The notes beneath the pieces are model-generated. The model was not told the origin of the DNA, ran no database searches, and worked only from the letters and a program-made list of their open reading frames with translations. This document shows, piece by piece, positions 6,619 to 13,495 of a stretch of 35,714 nucleotides of DNA. Positions within the stretch are counted from its first letter, which is position 1, and every line of letters begins with the position of its first letter. Location: IMG/VR virus record IMGVR_UViG_3300038309_000159, positions 1 through 35,714 of that record; one strand, given 5' to 3'. The translations under genes were made by a program, and so were the position numbers. The stretch comes from a virus.

Positions 6619-6855
6619 CTACAACCGCTCCACAATCTTCTCAAGCCGGTCTATACGTTTCATAATCCTCTTGTTCAGTCGGGCAAGCCTCCTGGCTACG
6701 CCCACCCAGAAGTTAAACTCCTCTTGGTTCAGTGAATTCACCTTCCGTCGGTGGGCGTACCTCAGTAGCCACATCGTAATGTCGGTGAAACGATCCCAGA
6801 TCCAGAGTTCAACTATGACCACCAATCCGCGAAGCGCTATCATGATAAGCTTCAT
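6619..6855 (-). CDS. Small membrane protein with basic helical tail
   Basis: 78 residues from ATG 6855, with GGAG seven bases upstream. Residues 3-20 are a hydrophobic helix (IMIALRGLVVIVELWIW). The rest is Arg/Lys-rich and probably a cytoplasmic coiled coil. It overlaps the 3' end of the deaminase gene by 47 nt, long for this phage; starting at Met5 (6843) would still overlap. It is the last gene of the leftward transcript, next to the terminator. No family is recognised. Confidence 0.6.
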   Translation of the reverse strand: MKLIMIALRGLVVIVELWIWDRFTDITMWLLRYAHRRKVNSLNQEEFNFWVGVARRLARLNKRIMKRIDRLEKIVERL

Positions 6856-7384
6856 GGCGCATCTCCAACTGCTCCCAGCTGCGATTTTTATTACTACCTA
6901 ACCACAAGTTCTCAGAGTTGTCATGAGAATATGGTTCGGCAAAGACGATGCGTTGGCATCCGGTGTTCATCAGAAGCTTTACGCATGCGATGCACGGGCT
7001 GACGGTGACGTAGCAAGTGCGAATTTCATAGACGTCTCGGCATTGTAGCAGCGCGTTCGCCTCCGCGTGGATGGCCTGGCAACCCTCGAGGTTAGTGCCG
7101 CTGGGGGCTTTCGCACCGCTACAAGCAAAGGGGTACGTATTGATGAACCGGGTGGGTTTGCTAATCAGCGGATCAACGGTTGACTGAACGAAGTCCACGC
7201 CCTCAAGTACCACCTCGTTGCAGTGCCTTACCCCGCTTGCCACCCCGTTGTACCCGGTTCCGATAACGTGCCCTCTGGAGTTGAGGAGGACGCAACCTAC
7301 ACGACGTCGCAGGCAGGTACTTCGAAGAGCGGTGTCAAGAGCCAGTTGCATGGCCCACTCATCAAGGGAGGGGCGGTTGTTCAT
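6809..7384 (-). CDS. Deoxycytidylate (dCMP) deaminase
   Basis: 191 residues from ATG 7384, which has GGGAGG at 7 nt and overlaps the upstream stop as ATGA; the TTG at 7402 is not needed. His106-Ala-Glu108 and Cys131-x-x-Cys134 (SPCIAC) form the zinc site of the cytidine/dCMP deaminase family. YNGVASG at about 45-51 and the internal extra Cys/His residues match ComE/phage dCMP deaminases. The enzyme converts dCMP to dUMP and so feeds dTMP synthesis. It lies directly after a TS-family gene that appears to use dCMP, so both would compete for one substrate, as cd and gp42 do in T4. Confidence 0.92.
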   Translation of the reverse strand: MNNRPSLDEWAMQLALDTALRSTCLRRRVGCVLLNSRGHVIGTGYNGVASGVRHCNEVVLEGVDFVQSTVDPLISKPTRFINTYPFACSGAKAPSGTNLEGCQAIHAEANALLQCRDVYEIRTCYVTVSPCIACVKLLMNTGCQRIVFAEPYSHDNSENLWLGSNKNRSWEQLEMRHEAYHDSASRIGGHS

Positions 7385-8199
7385 GACGCCACCTCCCACC
7401 AACGAAGTGGATCGCCCGGTTTCGAATCACGAAGTTTCTCCAGAACGGTTAGAAGAAAGGCTTCAGAGTCGTAAAGCGTCGTAGGTGTTTCATGTGGTAT
7501 CGGTACGTTCTCCCCATGCCGTAAACAGTCCTCAGCCGACGCGTGATTACGTTCATACAGGTGGCTTGAGGCAGCAGTCAGGTAGAGATTACCGGGTGAA
7601 ATTGGTCTCCGCTTGAACCGACTTGCCACGTTCCCGTCGTCACGGTAACGGGCGCAGACCAGGTGGGCCAACATGGAGAAGTTGAAGACGTCGTAGGGAA
7701 TACCCAACCACACGTCAGAGCTACGCATGAAGACGTGGCAGTTGAGATGCCGATCGCGGATCTGAAACCAGATGGCGATGGTGCACGGTACGTCCTTGGT
7801 AGTTGGCGGGTTCTCACGCCAGAGGGTGAGACCGGCTTGGCGCGTTACCTCGTCATCTCGCAGCTTATCCACCACGTAAGTCAACTGAGAAATGATCTTC
7901 GGCCCGTAAGCACCAAAGAAGGTCACCCCATCGTCACTGAACTGGCTAATGTGCGAGTTATAGGGTGCGATGGTCTCCACCCGATTGTCACCCGTCAAGA
8001 TCCAGAACGCCTCCGCGGCCATAAATCTATAATTGAGAAGACGTTGCGGCAAGGTCAGCACCGGTGACCTCATGTTGACAACGATCGTCTTCTGAGGTAG
8101 TTCAAGCGTTGCCTGACCACGTGGTGAAACCGGGTCACCACCCTCAAGAATATCGTTAAGCAAATTAAGCCAAACGCGGTTCATCGTAGGAGCTTTCAT
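7381..8199 (-). CDS. Thymidylate-synthase-family enzyme with dCMP-type Asp
   Basis: 272 residues, full length for the family. Catalytic Cys139 is in DVPC; the phosphate-binding R-S-S-D is at 159-162; LGIPYD at 165-170 corresponds to LGxPFN of thymidylate synthase; His213-x-Tyr215 matches the family H-x-Y; Glu63 lies in the AEAFWILTG helix. Asp170 stands where Asn (E. coli Asn177) binds the uracil ring of dUMP. Asp at this position is known from T4 dCMP hydroxymethylase and from engineered dCMP-specific synthase. I therefore infer a dCMP hydroxymethylase or dCMP methylase using methylene-tetrahydrofolate, but dUMP activity cannot be excluded. RBS AGGTG precedes ATG 8199. Confidence 0.85.
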   Translation of the reverse strand: MKAPTMNRVWLNLLNDILEGGDPVSPRGQATLELPQKTIVVNMRSPVLTLPQRLLNYRFMAAEAFWILTGDNRVETIAPYNSHISQFSDDGVTFFGAYGPKIISQLTYVVDKLRDDEVTRQAGLTLWRENPPTTKDVPCTIAIWFQIRDRHLNCHVFMRSSDVWLGIPYDVFNFSMLAHLVCARYRDDGNVASRFKRRPISPGNLYLTAASSHLYERNHASAEDCLRHGENVPIPHETPTTLYDSEAFLLTVLEKLRDSKPGDPLRWWEVAS

Positions 8200-8218
8200 C
8201 TTAACACCTCGATTCTAG

Positions 8219-9163
8219 TCAAACATTGTGAGTTCGGCACGCCAACGCCAACGGATATTCAGCAGCGGAGCTGAACCGCTTCCAGTACTGCGGATGCGGT
8301 ATGGTAGTGTGAGCGATACCGTGAGAGGTCAAGGCGGCGTTTGCCACCTCGCCCAGCGCGATCACGACATCCAGGGCGGCGGTCCGATGATCAAGGACCT
8401 CAGTTATCGGCATGTCCGCATTCAACCAGAGCAAATCCGTCTCAAGTAACCCAATTTGTGACAGCTGCTTCGTCAGCCACTGACTGCAACCGCTTCGGCT
8501 GAAGGACGCAAAAGGCCATTGATACATCGGGTCAGTTGACTTAACCGACCCGAAGGTGTCTCCCACCAAGATGACTGAGCCATTCAGGTTCCCGGCGCTG
8601 TTGGCGACCAACGGGTGAGCATCGGTTCGGATGCCGTTGAGGTACTGGCTGAACTTTGTGAAGTCGATGGCAGGACCGCACCGGGTGTAGTCGTGGTTGA
8701 TATAGCGTAAGCCAGTGTACCAGCTACGATCATAGAGATCGTAAACGCTCTTCAACGCGTTGGTGCTCGTAAGCATCTCACCGCCTTTCCGGGCCAGGTA
8801 GTTACCCTCTACCGTAGGCCACGGAGGCAAGCAACGAACGACTGCGGCACCGCAACGAAGCGCCAGACGTTCAAGCATCCGCACGTCTTGCTCAAGGAAC
8901 CTTGACGACCCTTCACGATGAACGCAGCCGTAGTACAGCTCACTGATCCAGCACCGATCCAAGACGACGTCCTGATAACCCAATATTGCCGGCATCATCG
9001 CCTCCGCGTAGATCCGGGCCAGGTGCCACGTCTTCACGCCAGGGTAAGGTCCGCAGTGGACGTACCTGGCACCGGTGGCCTCCGCGTAATCCCGCGCCAG
9101 TGTGGTCTTCCCACTTCCGTCAGGCCCCTCGAAGATCGTCACGTGCTTTGAGACATTAGTCAT
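8219..9163 (-). CDS. P-loop dNMP-kinase-like protein fused to UDG-superfamily-like domain
   Basis: 314 residues from ATG 9163 (GGAGGTG just upstream); it overlaps the upstream gene by 8 nt. Residues 1-180 look like a thymidylate/deoxynucleotide kinase: P-loop GPDGSGKT at 13-20, Asp69-Arg70 (DRCWISELYYG), and a basic lid-like RKGGE at about 125. Residues about 195-310 have another pattern: ILVGDTFG, then PFASFSRSG, an ALDVVIALGEVANAAL helix, and IPHPQYWKRF, the order of motifs in family 4-like uracil-DNA glycosylases. The usual acidic catalytic residue of GEAPG is replaced, so it may bind a base rather than excise it. The first half could phosphorylate a modified dNMP. The fusion is unusual to me and its function is inferred. 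Confidence 0.75.
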   Translation of the reverse strand: MTNVSKHVTIFEGPDGSGKTTLARDYAEATGARYVHCGPYPGVKTWHLARIYAEAMMPAILGYQDVVLDRCWISELYYGCVHREGSSRFLEQDVRMLERLALRCGAAVVRCLPPWPTVEGNYLARKGGEMLTSTNALKSVYDLYDRSWYTGLRYINHDYTRCGPAIDFTKFSQYLNGIRTDAHPLVANSAGNLNGSVILVGDTFGSVKSTDPMYQWPFASFSRSGCSQWLTKQLSQIGLLETDLLWLNADMPITEVLDHRTAALDVVIALGEVANAALTSHGIAHTTIPHPQYWKRFSSAAEYPLALACRTHNV

Positions 9164-9593
9164 GTTGCACCTCCACGACGTCACCGTCGTCGATCCGTTG
9201 ATGGTTTACACCCCACTTGGCTCGAAGCGCCTGCGTCAACTCATCCGGCGTGAGGCCCATGGCCAGCGCCGCGTTGGCCCAGAACTGCAATACATCGGTC
9301 AACTCGGTAGCCAGCTTAACCCGATCAACCTCAACCCGAGAGATCTTCCACGGTTTGAAGTTGATCTCACGAAGCACCTCGGTCAGCTCCACGATCGCAT
9401 GCAGCACGTTCTCCTTAAGACCCGCTTCACCGGTACCCGTGGGGTTACCCATTCGAGCCTGCAGCGCTCGTTGGGTCTCAAGCAGCTCCACCAGGTCCAG
9501 CACCAACGTTCGCTCCACAGTCATCTTTGACGTACTACCTGCTTTCATGTCGTCGTTATAACCAGTTGGAGTACCGATGTCATTGAAATTCAT
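9156..9593 (-). CDS. All-alpha NTP pyrophosphohydrolase (dimeric dUTPase / dCTPase-like)
   Basis: 145 residues. Glu69-x-x-Glu72 (VELTEVL), then FKPWK at 79-83, then Glu97-x-x-Asp100 (ELTDVLQF), and KWGVNHQR near the C-terminus give the metal-binding motifs of the MazG/dUTPase-2 superfamily. T4 gp56 dCTPase/dUTPase has the same order (WKPWK, ELIDQFHF, KN-x-x-N-x-x-RQ). Such enzymes turn dUTP or dCTP into the monophosphate. That keeps unmodified nucleotides out of DNA and supplies dCMP or dUMP to the TS-like enzyme in this operon. Substrate choice cannot be read from sequence. The start overlaps the methyltransferase stop as ATGA. Confidence 0.8.
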   Translation of the reverse strand: MNFNDIGTPTGYNDDMKAGSTSKMTVERTLVLDLVELLETQRALQARMGNPTGTGEAGLKENVLHAIVELTEVLREINFKPWKISRVEVDRVKLATELTDVLQFWANAALAMGLTPDELTQALRAKWGVNHQRIDDGDVVEVQHD

Positions 9594-10909
9594 TTCTCAC
9601 CTCGTAGTTGTCTCAATTTAGCGCGGTTCCACGAAACATCAGAGGCGGTCGCCTTCGACGTAGGGAACTCCTCGTGGATGGTGGTCAAGATGTCTTGGGT
9701 TGATAACCCCTGGCTGATTAGCTCCCGCATCCGCACGCCGATCCCCTGACCACGAGGTGCGCCTGAACCCGTACGTGGAGCACGGATAGGACGTTCCTTC
9801 TCCGGCGGTGCGATGTACTCCCACCGAGGAGGCGGTGGAATCCGCATAGGCTTCTGGGCGGTCAGGGTCTCGTAAACCGGGTCGTCTGGCTTACGAAGGT
9901 CGACCAGGGTCGCCACCACGCGATCGGTAGGAAGCGGTTTCTTACGTAACCCGTCACGTACCGCCGTCGCCAGCCACTCACCGACAGCGGGCATGACGGC
10001 GCGTGAAAGTTCCAGACTCGCCGGTTCCAGGGAGCCGTGAGCCGTCTTCCAGTCCAGCGGTAACCCGGCCATCGCGAGGCACTCATACCAGTTGAGGGTG
10101 CGCGGTGAGCGAGGATGGAGCCGCTTCGAAGCCCCGATGAAGGTAAGCGGTACCTCGTCCAACTTCAACCGACGGACCGTCATCGCCGGGCGCGGTCGCA
10201 GCTTCTCCTGCTCCTTGGCGGTTTTGAGGATCAGCGTTCGACGTAGGGTGTGACCTGTAGCGGGGCACTCCGCCCAGAGCTTCTGAAGCGATTCCGCTAA
10301 CGGTGGTTCCTTCACCGGTGGTTTACCGAGCTTCTTCGGAATGCTCTTGAGCAGCTCACCTACGGTCAGCGGGTCGACGAAGGACGGCCAAACCAACGGG
10401 TACTTGTGGGCGATGAGAAACATCCGTGGGCGATTCTGGTTCGCACCCAGATACATGTTGTTCTGCAGCAACACGGTGACGTGGTAGCCGTAGCTCAACC
10501 ACCGCTCTACCTCACCCATTACGAACTCGCGCCCTTTACGCCAGGCACCTACCACGCTTTCCCAGCACCAGACATCGGGTTGTACGATGAGACCGGCTGT
10601 CGTCAGATCACGTACGATCTGCAACCGCTCCTCATGCTCCTGCCATGGTTTGCTAAGTTGCATTGCGCTCCACGCGGCGCAAGGCGGGTTGGTGTACATG
10701 AAGTTCACCCGTCCGGTAAACTCCTCGGGTCGCCACGTGTGCACCCCGTTCCTGATTTCCAGGTCAGGGTAGTTCAGGCGACACGTAGGCGTGCCGTACG
10801 TCGTATGTTCCAGGTGGCCCAGGATCTCAAAACCCGCACGTCGCACACCATACGTAAAAAGCCCGGCGAAGATATCTCCGCCGAGTGCAGTCAATTTCTT
10901 TTTAGCCAT
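9590..10909 (-). CDS. DNA (cytosine-5) methyltransferase with extra C-terminal module
   Basis: 439 residues from ATG 10909 (GGAGG upstream, TGATG overlap with the previous gene; a GTG lies at 10912). Motif I is DIFAGLFTYG (12-21), motif IV is NPPCAAWS with nucleophile Cys77, motif VI is WESV (116-119) in place of ENV, and motif VIII is QNRPR (158-162). The target-recognition region follows. The last ~47 residues (MRELISQGLSTQD to the end) match the C-termini of the two basic proteins encoded at 11747-12442 and 12695-13495. The enzyme would place 5-methylcytosine in phage DNA, probably to evade restriction. No cognate restriction enzyme is present. Confidence 0.88.
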   Translation of the reverse strand: MAKKKLTALGGDIFAGLFTYGVRRAGFEILGHLEHTTYGTPTCRLNYPDLEIRNGVHTWRPEEFTGRVNFMYTNPPCAAWSAMQLSKPWQEHEERLQIVRDLTTAGLIVQPDVWCWESVVGAWRKGREFVMGEVERWLSYGYHVTVLLQNNMYLGANQNRPRMFLIAHKYPLVWPSFVDPLTVGELLKSIPKKLGKPPVKEPPLAESLQKLWAECPATGHTLRRTLILKTAKEQEKLRPRPAMTVRRLKLDEVPLTFIGASKRLHPRSPRTLNWYECLAMAGLPLDWKTAHGSLEPASLELSRAVMPAVGEWLATAVRDGLRKKPLPTDRVVATLVDLRKPDDPVYETLTAQKPMRIPPPPRWEYIAPPEKERPIRAPRTGSGAPRGQGIGVRMRELISQGLSTQDILTTIHEEFPTSKATASDVSWNRAKLRQLRGEK

Positions 10910-11712
10910 CACGCACCTCCTGGTTTCCGACAGACCCAGAGGTTATTCCGGGCATGGTCTGGAAAGAGCGGTGCGAAGAAGCAGCTCAACGCATCGCGGT
11001 CGTAGTAACCGTGAAGTAGATCGTGGACCACCTGCACGGCAGCAGCTACCTCGGAATCATCATAGGGCGTGTCGGCCGGTAGGTGATCGAAGTTCTTTAC
11101 CTTCGTAATATGACGTACATCCATGAAGGTACCGAACCGACGTTCTACGGTGAACCCAGCTTTTATCACCGCCTTCTGCAGCTCCTCCACGGTATACTCA
11201 TGGATATGATTTGCAGCGTGACGATGGCCATCGTAACAAGGGGTGCTCATAAGCATCACGCCGCCTGGCTTCAACAGCTCAAAGCACCCTTTAAGCAACG
11301 CCCGACCATGAGGTACCGCCATGTGCTCGATGACCTCCAGATGCAATACTACGTCGAAACCGTCGTCCTGCGTCCGCTTAAGCTTCTTCCAGTCTTTAAT
11401 GAAGTTGAACTCGCCGTGGAAGATATAACGCCTTCCGTACCCATTTTCAGTCAGCGGGTTTAGGTCTACCCCTACGTACTCATTCACTTGCTGCAATGCA
11501 TTCCTACTGAGAATATGGGCGAGGGGTTTCTCTACCCCGCACCCAATCTCCAGCACGTTAGAGGTCTTGTTGATAAACCGACGGGCAAAGTTCCACCGGA
11601 AGAAATGTGCGGTGTAGTCACGATGCAGATTACGACCGTGCATCTTCTCATGAAGAGACGTCGTGTCAAATTCACGATCGTCTCGTTTCTTTTCTTTTGA
11701 TCTTGTCACCAT
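10909..11712 (-). CDS. Class I SAM-dependent methyltransferase
   Basis: 267 residues. LEIGCG at about 55-60 is the SAM-binding motif I, VGVDLNP ends strand 2, FDVVLHLEVIEHM is the typical motif around strand 4, and LLKPGGVMLMSTP follows. The pattern is that of small-molecule or RNA-cap-type Methyltransf_11/23 enzymes, not of DNA adenine methylases (no DPPY/NPPF). A C-terminal part of about 80 residues has Phe/His/Asp-rich segments of unknown role. It is overlapped by the C5-methyltransferase gene, so the two are co-translated. Substrate is unknown; modification of a base side group is a possibility. Confidence 0.8.
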   Translation of the reverse strand: MVTRSKEKKRDDREFDTTSLHEKMHGRNLHRDYTAHFFRWNFARRFINKTSNVLEIGCGVEKPLAHILSRNALQQVNEYVGVDLNPLTENGYGRRYIFHGEFNFIKDWKKLKRTQDDGFDVVLHLEVIEHMAVPHGRALLKGCFELLKPGGVMLMSTPCYDGHRHAANHIHEYTVEELQKAVIKAGFTVERRFGTFMDVRHITKVKNFDHLPADTPYDDSEVAAAVQVVHDLLHGYYDRDALSCFFAPLFPDHARNNLWVCRKPGGA

Positions 11713-11746: not shown

Positions 11747-12442
11747 TTATTTACCGTCAGGAACCTTCACGCCTTTCTTCCTGAGGTTATTCCGGTACCA
11801 AGCCACGTAACTGCGCTTGCTATCATCAAGACCAAACTGCGCTTTGACTTGCTCAAAGATCTTGTCGTCGGTCAACTCACCGCTGATGATCAGCTCCTTA
11901 AACATCTGAGCCGCTGATGTGTAGGTACCGTCACCCTTAACAGCTTTGGCCTTCGCCGGGGTAGCCTTCGCCGGGGTAGCCTTCGCCGGGGTAGCCTTAG
12001 CTGCCTTCGCCGGGGTAGCCTTCGCCGGGGTAGCCTTAGCTGCCTTCGCCGGGGTAGCCTTAGCTGCCTTCGCCGGGGTAGTCTTCACGGTAGTTGTCGC
12101 TTCTTTACGTTTTGAATTTGCCATCTCGTAATCCTTCTCTACAATTTTTGTAAACTTGCCAAGGTAGTCCAAGGCTTCTTTTGACGCCCCGATGTCACGA
12201 CCGTACTCAGCGTAGAGCTGGGCAGCTCGTTCAACAGGATAATCGTCCATCGGCTTATACCGTCGGTCGAAGTAATCAACCGATACCTGCATCACATTCA
12301 GACCGTTTGTGACATCAAGTGGTATATACCAAACGAACTCTTCACTACGGTCAACTTGGATACAAGTGCGACCTTCAAAATCCCTCGCCACAAGAGCTTT
12401 TGACGACGTCTTAGCGTTTACCACTTTCTTTTTTGCCGCCAT
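11747..12442 (-). CDS. Basic protein with histone-H1-like AKATP linker
   Basis: 231 residues from ATG 12442, which has GGAG at 8 nt; the frame opens at 12472. The N-terminal part (residues about 1-120) is a small mixed domain with WYIPLDVTNG. Residues about 123-175 are a Lys/Ala/Thr/Pro repeat (AKATP units) resembling histone H1 tails, likely to bind DNA non-specifically. The last ~55 residues (from AAQMFKELI, ending near YVAWYRNNLRKKG) match the C-terminal module of the cytosine methyltransferase and of the next upstream protein. This suggests a DNA-associated role. The start overlaps the upstream gene by 32 nt. Confidence 0.8.
   Translation of the reverse strand: MAAKKKVVNAKTSSKALVARDFEGRTCIQVDRSEEFVWYIPLDVTNGLNVMQVSVDYFDRRYKPMDDYPVERAAQLYAEYGRDIGASKEALDYLGKFTKIVEKDYEMANSKRKEATTTVKTTPAKAAKATPAKAAKATPAKATPAKAAKATPAKATPAKATPAKAKAVKGDGTYTSAAQMFKELIISGELTDDKIFEQVKAQFGLDDSKRSYVAWYRNNLRKKGVKVPDGK
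11949..12080 (-). repeat. Tandem repeat encoding AKATP units
   Basis: Seven copies of a 15-bp unit (gccttcgccggggta on +) and three copies of a 9-bp unit (gccttagct) fill 132 bp. All keep the reading frame, giving (AKATP)n with AKA inserts. The near-perfect DNA identity suggests recent expansion and length variability. Confidence 0.95.
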
Positions 12443-12683
12443 TTTCAATTCTCCAAAGAAGCTCATCAGCAATCAATGAAAGTTCGAGCAAACCGGCTAA
12501 AAGCGCTTTAGCTTCTGGCCAGACCTGTGGCCCGTAGACCTCCCAATGGAACTGGGGTAAGCGCCCAGTTCCACGGTTGTTCAGCGTAAGGAGAGCACGG
12601 CGCTGCCCGTCGACGTACAGCTGAAACCGTTGTTCAGCGTCAGTGCTCTCATCACGAATTTCAATGGGGTGTTTATCCGTCAT
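12411..12683 (-). CDS. Hypothetical protein
   Basis: 90 residues. N-terminal strands (RFQLYVDGQRRALLTLNN) are followed by a helix rich in Leu (EAKALLAGLLELSLIADELL) and a basic end. No family is recognised. It sits between two basic proteins that share a C-terminal module, and the downstream one starts inside its last codons, so all three are probably made together. Confidence 0.7.
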   Translation of the reverse strand: MTDKHPIEIRDESTDAEQRFQLYVDGQRRALLTLNNRGTGRLPQFHWEVYGPQVWPEAKALLAGLLELSLIADELLWRIENGGKKESGKR

Positions 12684-12694
12684 CGTAGATCACC

Positions 12695-13495
12695 CTATGA
12701 GATCTTGCCGTCGAGACGAAGCTTCCGACGGTACCACGCGGGATAACCACGCTTCTTGTCATCGAGATTGAACGACTTCTTCAGCTGGTCCCACACCTCA
12801 GCGTTCGTCTTACCCTCAAGAATCAACCGGCAAGCCATCGCGGTGCAGTTCTCCTTCAACTCCTTCGGCTTCGGTTTTTCTGACGATGACTTCTTAACCG
12901 TAGAGGTTTTACCGCCCTTGGGCTTCTCACGGGTAACAGTTTCGCCCTTCGCTTCAGCGGTGACAACGGTCTTGACGATGACAGGTGCGGTGCCAAGACG
13001 TGCAGCGGTGAGATTGAGATCGTACTTCCCGTCGTCACGCTTCGTCATGAAATTATCATAGAGAGATGGGTCGACCTTGAGCTTGCGCAGGACGTTCGTG
13101 GCGCTCGTACGGCTCCCATAGGTCTTGATCTCGTCAGGTTTCTCATCTTCACCTAACCCGTCGAGGTGCGCTTCGGCCTTCGCAATTTGACATGCGAACA
13201 TCCCACTTGGCATCTCATCAATGAAGAAGCTGTAGTCACGCTCAGAAATTCCAAGACGGCGCAGCACCTCCTCGGCGTCATAACGATCTTGATAGAACTT
13301 CACGTTCTTCGTGTTGACGACCCGGTTCAAACCCAGCTCGTCAGCAGCGGCCAACATCAGCTTCTTGAACTGGGGAACCGTTATGATCGTAGGATCGTAA
13401 TCGGCATCGGCAGCCACTACGTGGGCTTGGACCTGATGAGCTTCCTGAAAGGACAGGCCAAGATAATCCATCAGAATTTTTGAGTACTTATCCAT
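12695..13495 (-). CDS. Basic protein sharing C-terminal module with the methyltransferase
   Basis: 266 residues from ATG 13495, the first gene after promoter 13534-13562, with SD TGAGG at 8 nt. Residues 1-165 are an acidic/mixed region with two similar-looking helical segments (AEEVLRRLGISERDYSFFID and the later VLRKLKVDPSLYDNFM), perhaps a duplicated unit. Residues about 180-215 are a Lys/Ser/Pro-rich linker. The last ~50 residues (ACRLILEG ... YPAWYRRKLRLDG) are the shared module. Function is unknown. As leader gene of the modification operon it could be a DNA-binding or packaging factor. Confidence 0.75.
   Translation of the reverse strand: MDKYSKILMDYLGLSFQEAHQVQAHVVAADADYDPTIITVPQFKKLMLAAADELGLNRVVNTKNVKFYQDRYDAEEVLRRLGISERDYSFFIDEMPSGMFACQIAKAEAHLDGLGEDEKPDEIKTYGSRTSATNVLRKLKVDPSLYDNFMTKRDDGKYDLNLTAARLGTAPVIVKTVVTAEAKGETVTREKPKGGKTSTVKKSSSEKPKPKELKENCTAMACRLILEGKTNAEVWDQLKKSFNLDDKKRGYPAWYRRKLRLDGKIS

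Follow-up and report, generated by a model that had tools for sequence, protein, structure and literature searches.

A phage gene module predicted to hydroxymethylate dCMP is linked to two unusual methyltransferase relatives

A core of thymidylate synthase (TS) homologue, deoxycytidylate (dCMP) deaminase and nucleoside triphosphate pyrophosphatase (NTPPase) is already a known route to modified cytosine. Study of the phage T4 enzyme gave a signature for hydroxymethylation, with Asp or Glu at position −3 from the catalytic Cys for water activation (T4 Asp145) and Ser or Thr at position 94 with Tyr at position 96 (PMC6400193), and in the MetaGPA study TS positions 177 (Asp) and 147 separated cytosine-modified from unmodified contigs (PMC8670742). 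In Stenotrophomonas phage AXL3, only 2 of 37 restriction enzymes cut the DNA, both at A/T-only sites, and every tested enzyme with G/C in its site was resisted (PMC7504290). Here we describe a module of six leftward genes at 6809-11712 of the IMG/VR virus record IMGVR_UViG_3300038309_000159; positions 1 to 35,714 of the 36,899 bases in this record were analysed and are referred to as the window. Besides the core enzymes, the module encodes a kinase fused to a uracil-DNA glycosylase (UDG)-like domain and two relatives of S-adenosylmethionine (SAM)-dependent methyltransferases, which we call C5M and MT2. These two are the new element of the locus, both being linked to the hydroxymethylase gene far beyond the window.

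All six open reading frames (ORFs) lie on the minus strand, and because they overlap by 4-22 bp or stand 19 bp apart (spacings from deaminase to MT2 of −22, +19, −8, −4 and −4 bp), the module reads as one operon. A sequence-only reading of the window had proposed this compact arrangement and the gene identities, and ORFs, spacings and Pfam and phrog matches bear it out. That reading had also taken a lack of co-occurrence in related phages as a point that would count against it, and the genes were found to co-occur clearly. The nearest annotated phages by DNA (about 70%) are AXL3, Pseudoxanthomonas phage PW916 and ctUtU524, all of which carry the deaminase, TS homologue, kinase-UDG, pyrophosphatase and MT2 in identical order and lack C5M; the TS and MT2 proteins of AXL3 and PW916 show 57-58% identity to those of the window. 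A scan of IMG/VR with the TS homologue returned 80 loci, and in many of them the genes run MT2 - (C5M) - NTPPase - kinase/UDG - TS - deaminase. The deaminase adjoins the TS homologue in most relatives, and an NTPPase-type gene occupies the pyrophosphatase slot in most. The six-gene set is not a chance grouping, its order recurring in the three annotated phages and in dozens of IMG/VR contigs, and C5M is an optional member. MT2, kinase-UDG, TS and deaminase genes were also present in three contigs (L248, L249 and L250 in our own numbering of loci) from metagenome-assembled bacterial genomes in Chromatiales, Lentisphaera and Betaproteobacteria bins; these are probably phage contigs binned with their hosts, and the bins are possible host clues.

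We consider it very probable that the module hydroxymethylates dCMP and that the phage DNA carries 5-hydroxymethylcytosine (5hmC) in place of cytosine. D170 of the TS homologue corresponds to position 177 of E. coli TS (Asn177 there) and is Asp in all 74 relatives; the residue after the catalytic Cys is Thr in 71 of the 74 (C139 and T140 in the window protein). The window sequence D136-V-P-C139, which aligns with D-F-M-C of T4, places Asp at −3 from this Cys; Asp or Glu was found there in 55/55 TS sequences linked to C5M, collected by pattern matching, and in 70/72 from MT2 loci. The closest PDB match of the TS homologue was the CMP 5-hydroxymethylase MilA (1.7e-16). A search for dihydrofolate reductase (DHFR; PF00186) was negative for AXL3, ctUtU524, the window record and 45 further IMG/VR contigs, records that may be fragments, and positive for AXL1 and T4. 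One weak match from a single-protein tblastn search for DHFR (E 0.008) lay antisense to MT2 and was judged spurious, the Pfam search being negative. The missing DHFR fits hydroxymethylation better than methylation, since hydroxymethylation returns tetrahydrofolate (THF) and methylation consumes it. In combination, the active-site residues, the match to MilA, the absence of DHFR and the restriction resistance of AXL3 make 5-hydroxymethyl-dCMP the likely product, and with the conserved neighbourhood they uphold the T4-like logic that had been proposed.

The sequence-only reading had regarded the two methyltransferases as ordinary additions to that logic, a view that our analysis does not favor: MT2 is a core partner that resembles O-methyltransferases, and C5M has a non-canonical motif I. 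In a scan with an MT2 profile, limited to loci whose contigs extend 4.5 kb downstream, the hydroxymethylase gene accompanied MT2 in 61/66 loci. The profile of 38 homologues showed E126, E129, H130, S156-T157-P158, N168, H169 and E172 to be invariant. E126-V-I-E129-H130 forms an ExxEH metal-binding motif that the profile aligns with Hen1 and UbiG, and H169 is a candidate counterpart of the further His ligand of Hen1. Among the PDB matches of the MT2 profile were two metal-dependent O-methyltransferases, bacterial Hen1 (5e-9) and UbiG (8e-8), together with plant HEN1 (4.5e-7) and a small-RNA 2'-O-methyltransferase. The top structural match of an AlphaFold2 (AF2) model of MT2 (predicted local distance difference test, pLDDT, 90) was CmoM, which methylates the 5-substituent of wobble uridine (8joz, Z 20.4, root-mean-square deviation 4.3, 215 residues aligned; 4htf, Z 19.4), a modest lead because the next family follows at Z 18.9. 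Pfam recognised no glucosyltransferase among the window ORFs scanned. We put forward tentatively, at somewhat under even confidence, that MT2 is an O-methyltransferase of 5hmC or of its nucleotide that fills the capping slot; we found nothing relevant on methoxymethylcytosine in phage in the literature.

Several loci without MT2 carry other genes near the hydroxymethylase. In five of these (L041, L045, L047, L051 and L052) a pyridoxal phosphate (PLP)-dependent enzyme gene adjoins the dCMP hydroxymethylase gene, and all but L041 also encode an SGNH-like protein and a 380-aa protein of no assigned family, raising the possibility that here cytosine, and not thymine, receives an amino-acid-type hypermodification. 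PLP-dependent enzyme genes were found only in contigs without MT2 (3/12 versus 0/38 at the search threshold; five contigs by clustering), a mutual exclusion that is no more than suggestive, given the relatedness of these contigs. Another contig without MT2 (L050) has a weak glycosyltransferase-like gene.

Although no relative of C5M was found among 50,697 phage records, 80 IMG/VR loci carried one, and among loci with at least 5.5 kb of downstream sequence a hydroxymethylase gene of the same orientation was no more than 5.5 kb away in 45/49. The sequence-only reading had noted that a C5-methyltransferase is puzzling if the cytosines of the phage are already hydroxymethylated; this puzzle is strengthened here, because the linkage extends it to the whole C5M family. 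The C5M profile matched HaeIII (1.2e-23) in a local alignment that begins inside motif I and so does not place the deletion described below. The catalytic P75 P76 C77, E117 of motif VI, R160 and R162 (numbering of alignment A3) are invariant among eight sequences, and PPC, the motif VI Glu and RxR are near-universal in the larger family. In contrast, the canonical SAM motif I, FxGxGG, was present in 0/73 family members; nearly all have FAGxF, in a loop that lacks two residues by comparison with Dcm, whose sequence came from a database, and with HhaI, for which we used what we take to be its sequence, with the same conclusion from either comparison. Most members have ESV instead of ENV in motif VI, and in motif X a [SA]R[AG]V-type sequence replaces GNSV, with the Asn not kept. 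The motif II Glu, through which HhaI contacts the ribose of SAM, is retained, so that C5M may still bind SAM.

Because canonical motif I is absent from every member tested, C5M may work on 5hmC instead of being a cytosine methylase, a role that we propose with doubt. It is chemically reasonable in that the C5-methyltransferases M.HhaI and engineered M.SssI catalyse related reactions in vitro, namely thiol coupling to 5hmC and formaldehyde addition to cytosine (PMC7176277). A second C5M clade lacks MT2, and its genes run C5M - NTPPase - 346-aa protein - kinase - TS - deaminase. We know of no natural enzyme that carries out formaldehyde addition or thiol coupling of the M.HhaI or M.SssI kind. 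The 346-aa protein (phrog_14998), conserved between NTPPase and kinase in the L106-L166 group (e.g. L122:9409-10446), is a candidate capping enzyme. In three loci (L151, L157 and L163), C5M, kinase and TS are directly preceded by a second P-loop kinase-like gene and by a gene that matches Amino acid:DNA transferase (PF18724, 5e-9 in L151). In the window, C5M has a C-terminal helix-turn-helix (HTH)-like extension (phrog_17205 / 34102) in common with its neighbors at 11747-12472 and 12695-13495, both on the minus strand, which suggests a joint DNA-binding or partner-binding module; in the first of these it follows TPAKAAKA-type Lys/Ala/Pro repeats that resemble a histone H1-like tail.

For the kinase ORF the ATG at 9163 is the most likely start (a GTG at 9184 being the alternative), and the product has a P-loop deoxynucleotide kinase in residues 1 to about 180 and a UDG-superfamily-like domain from about 185 to 314. 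An AF2 model (pLDDT 91) matched YorR and thymidylate kinases in its N-terminal half; UDG chains were missing from the whole-model structural matches, a list filled by the kinase half. The UDG-like domain noted in the sequence-only reading appears from profiles to be real but remote: PF03167 was matched by 7/23 homologous domains (best 4.4e-5), the window domain alone giving no significant match, and the profile gave weak matches to type-4/UdgX chains, mostly at E 0.001-0.015, with H106 P107 invariant. A single-sequence scan of viral contigs with the kinase-UDG protein confirmed no relative. In 13 relatives no kinase-UDG fusion was found; the gene directly before TS there encodes a 131-aa protein (phrog_18404, hydrolase) (L006, L013, L015, L016, L017 and others). 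The deaminase is predicted to convert dCMP to deoxyuridylate (dUMP), feeding synthesis of thymidylate (dTMP) and draining unmodified dCMP.

In the pathway that we propose, the NTPPase would remove dCTP, the deaminase would turn surplus dCMP into dUMP, and the TS homologue would convert dCMP to 5-hydroxymethyl-dCMP, which the kinase half would phosphorylate to the diphosphate for eventual incorporation by the polymerase as 5-hydroxymethyl-dCTP. The UDG-like half probably polices deaminated pyrimidines, although this is a guess. MT2 would then O-methylate the 5-hydroxymethyl group, on the nucleotide or in DNA, to give 5-methoxymethylcytosine, taking the slot held elsewhere by glucosyl- or carbamoyl-transferases, and C5M would be an accessory, most likely acting on cytosines already 5-hydroxymethylated. 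Gene identities, conserved residues and linkage are observed, and every reaction is inferred. For the pathway as a whole, with 5hmC replacing cytosine before replication and being capped afterward, we see the chances as evenly balanced. Its most specific form, in which MT2 makes 5-methoxymethylcytosine and C5M, having abandoned canonical SAM methylation, uses its Cys/Glu center to remove the hydroxymethyl group of 5hmC or replace it by another nucleophile, yielding an undescribed hypermodified cytosine, is distinctly speculative.

Several observations weigh against this proposal. The position of T4 Ser94 is Gly96 in the window TS, whereas the signature Tyr is kept (Y98), and because only half of this feature holds, the claim is limited to dCMP-hydroxymethylase-like action and does not extend to a strict T4 type. 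The IMG/VR contigs are mostly fragments and linked by descent, so that locus counts are not independent, and for every member of this group the base chemistry is a prediction. For MT2, the match to CmoM is about 1.5 Z above other families in a class of promiscuous folds (class-I methyltransferases), and ExxEH is not exclusive to nucleic-acid methylases. Finally, C5M occurs both with MT2 (5 contigs) and without it (3 contigs), and the two proteins therefore need not act in sequence.

Of the alternatives, the one to be taken most seriously, although it is somewhat unlikely, is that plain 5hmC is the end product, with MT2 acting on a small molecule, an RNA end or a protein and C5M methylating host DNA or residual unmodified cytosines. 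The retention of PPC, Glu, RxR and the motif II Glu makes use of SAM by C5M possible, and MT2 matches many small-molecule methylases as well as Hen1, which methylates RNA 3' ends. However, the linkage of both genes to the hydroxymethylase would be needless for a general function, and canonical motif I is absent from all C5M members tested.

The other two alternatives concern the TS homologue. It might reductively methylate dCMP to 5-methyl-dCMP, giving 5-methylcytosine (5mC) in the DNA as in phage XP12 (MT664984), for which its relative AXL1 served as stand-in. XP12 and AXL1 both have the deaminase-TS-NTPPase core, AXL1 DNA is resistant to a comparable set of enzymes (PMC9206674), and N177D mutants of true TS yield 5-methyl-dCMP according to work cited in PMC8670742. 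Yet AXL1 TS has Asn at −3 and Pro after the Cys, where the window TS has Asp and Thr like T4; XP12-type phages carry DHFR, as expected because methylation consumes THF, and none was found with this module; and a methylated 5-position would offer MT2 no hydroxyl. We regard this route as very unlikely. Still more improbable, to the point of near exclusion, is that the module serves thymidylate supply only (dCMP to dUMP to dTMP) and makes no modified base. This is how the homologous AXL3 and PW916 genes were annotated in publication, but every relative has Asp rather than Asn at the dUMP-recognition position, AXL3 has a separate thymidylate-synthase-complementing gene, and its DNA behaves as modified.

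The module (Table 1) is flanked by rightward genes for baseplate J and DUF2612 and then by leftward genes for a helicase, an exonuclease, a PD-(D/E)XK nuclease and DNA polymerase A, consistent with a tailed phage with a bacterial host.

Table 1. Genes of the leftward module and their best family matches
Gene	Coordinates	Strand	Match
dCMP deaminase	6809..7402	-	PF00383 6.6e-20; phrog_174 9.6e-36
TS homologue, predicted dCMP 5-hydroxymethylase (thymidylate synthase fold)	7381..8199	-	PF00303 4.9e-20
P-loop kinase/UDG-like fusion	8219..9163	-	phrog_761 thymidylate kinase 7.8e-12
All-alpha NTP pyrophosphatase, putative dCTPase/dUTPase	9156..9593	-	dUTPase_2 PF08761 4.9e-10; phrog_173 2.2e-14
C5M, divergent C5-cytosine-methyltransferase fold	9590..10912	-	PF00145 3.8e-11
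MT2, class-I SAM methyltransferase, Hen1/UbiG type	10909..11712	-	Methyltransf_23 3.6e-17

The candidate capping gene belongs neither to the recognised glycosyltransferases nor to the carbamoyltransferases, and the modified base that results may never have been described. If MT2 does O-methylate 5hmC, phages would shield their DNA with a small ether cap, which could affect sequencing chemistries, nucleases specific for 5hmC and labelling by glucosyltransferases. The systematic linkage of C5M to the hydroxymethylase and its conserved SAM-loop change turn a curiosity into a testable question. AXL3 and PW916, which are cultured and have the core module without C5M, make the chemistry directly accessible.

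Among known systems, AXL3 and PW916 are alike in gene order and, for AXL3, in resistance to G/C-specific restriction; they differ in lacking C5M and in being annotated as a thymidylate pathway, and we found no report of their base chemistry. The MetaGPA contigs with 5-carbamoyloxymethylcytosine have the same context of TS, dCMP deaminase and NTP pyrophosphohydrolase with Asp177 (PMC8670742), but carry a carbamoyltransferase, of which no match was found in the window or in 84 loci, where MT2 stands here. The 5mC phages XP12 and AXL1 have the deaminase-TS-NTPPase core, and Asp177 in AXL1, and differ in having DHFR, in Asn at −3 and in an AXL1 neighborhood without annotated methyltransferase or kinase. 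Burke et al. are said to have described in 2021 phage TET/5mC hypermodification clusters with a C5-MTase-type gene. Such a gene is thus common to those clusters and the window, where by contrast 5hmC is predicted to arise at the nucleotide level; a search for TET/JBP gave no match in the window and was equally silent on control genomes, so that absence is not established. The T4 gp42 system resembles the window in dCTP removal, dCMP hydroxymethylation and a deoxynucleoside monophosphate kinase, and in the active-site D-x-x-C-T, Tyr and Asp179. It differs at Ser94, which is Gly in the window TS, and in the window having C5M, a kinase fused to a UDG-like domain and, in the capping slot of the T4 glucosyltransferases, MT2.

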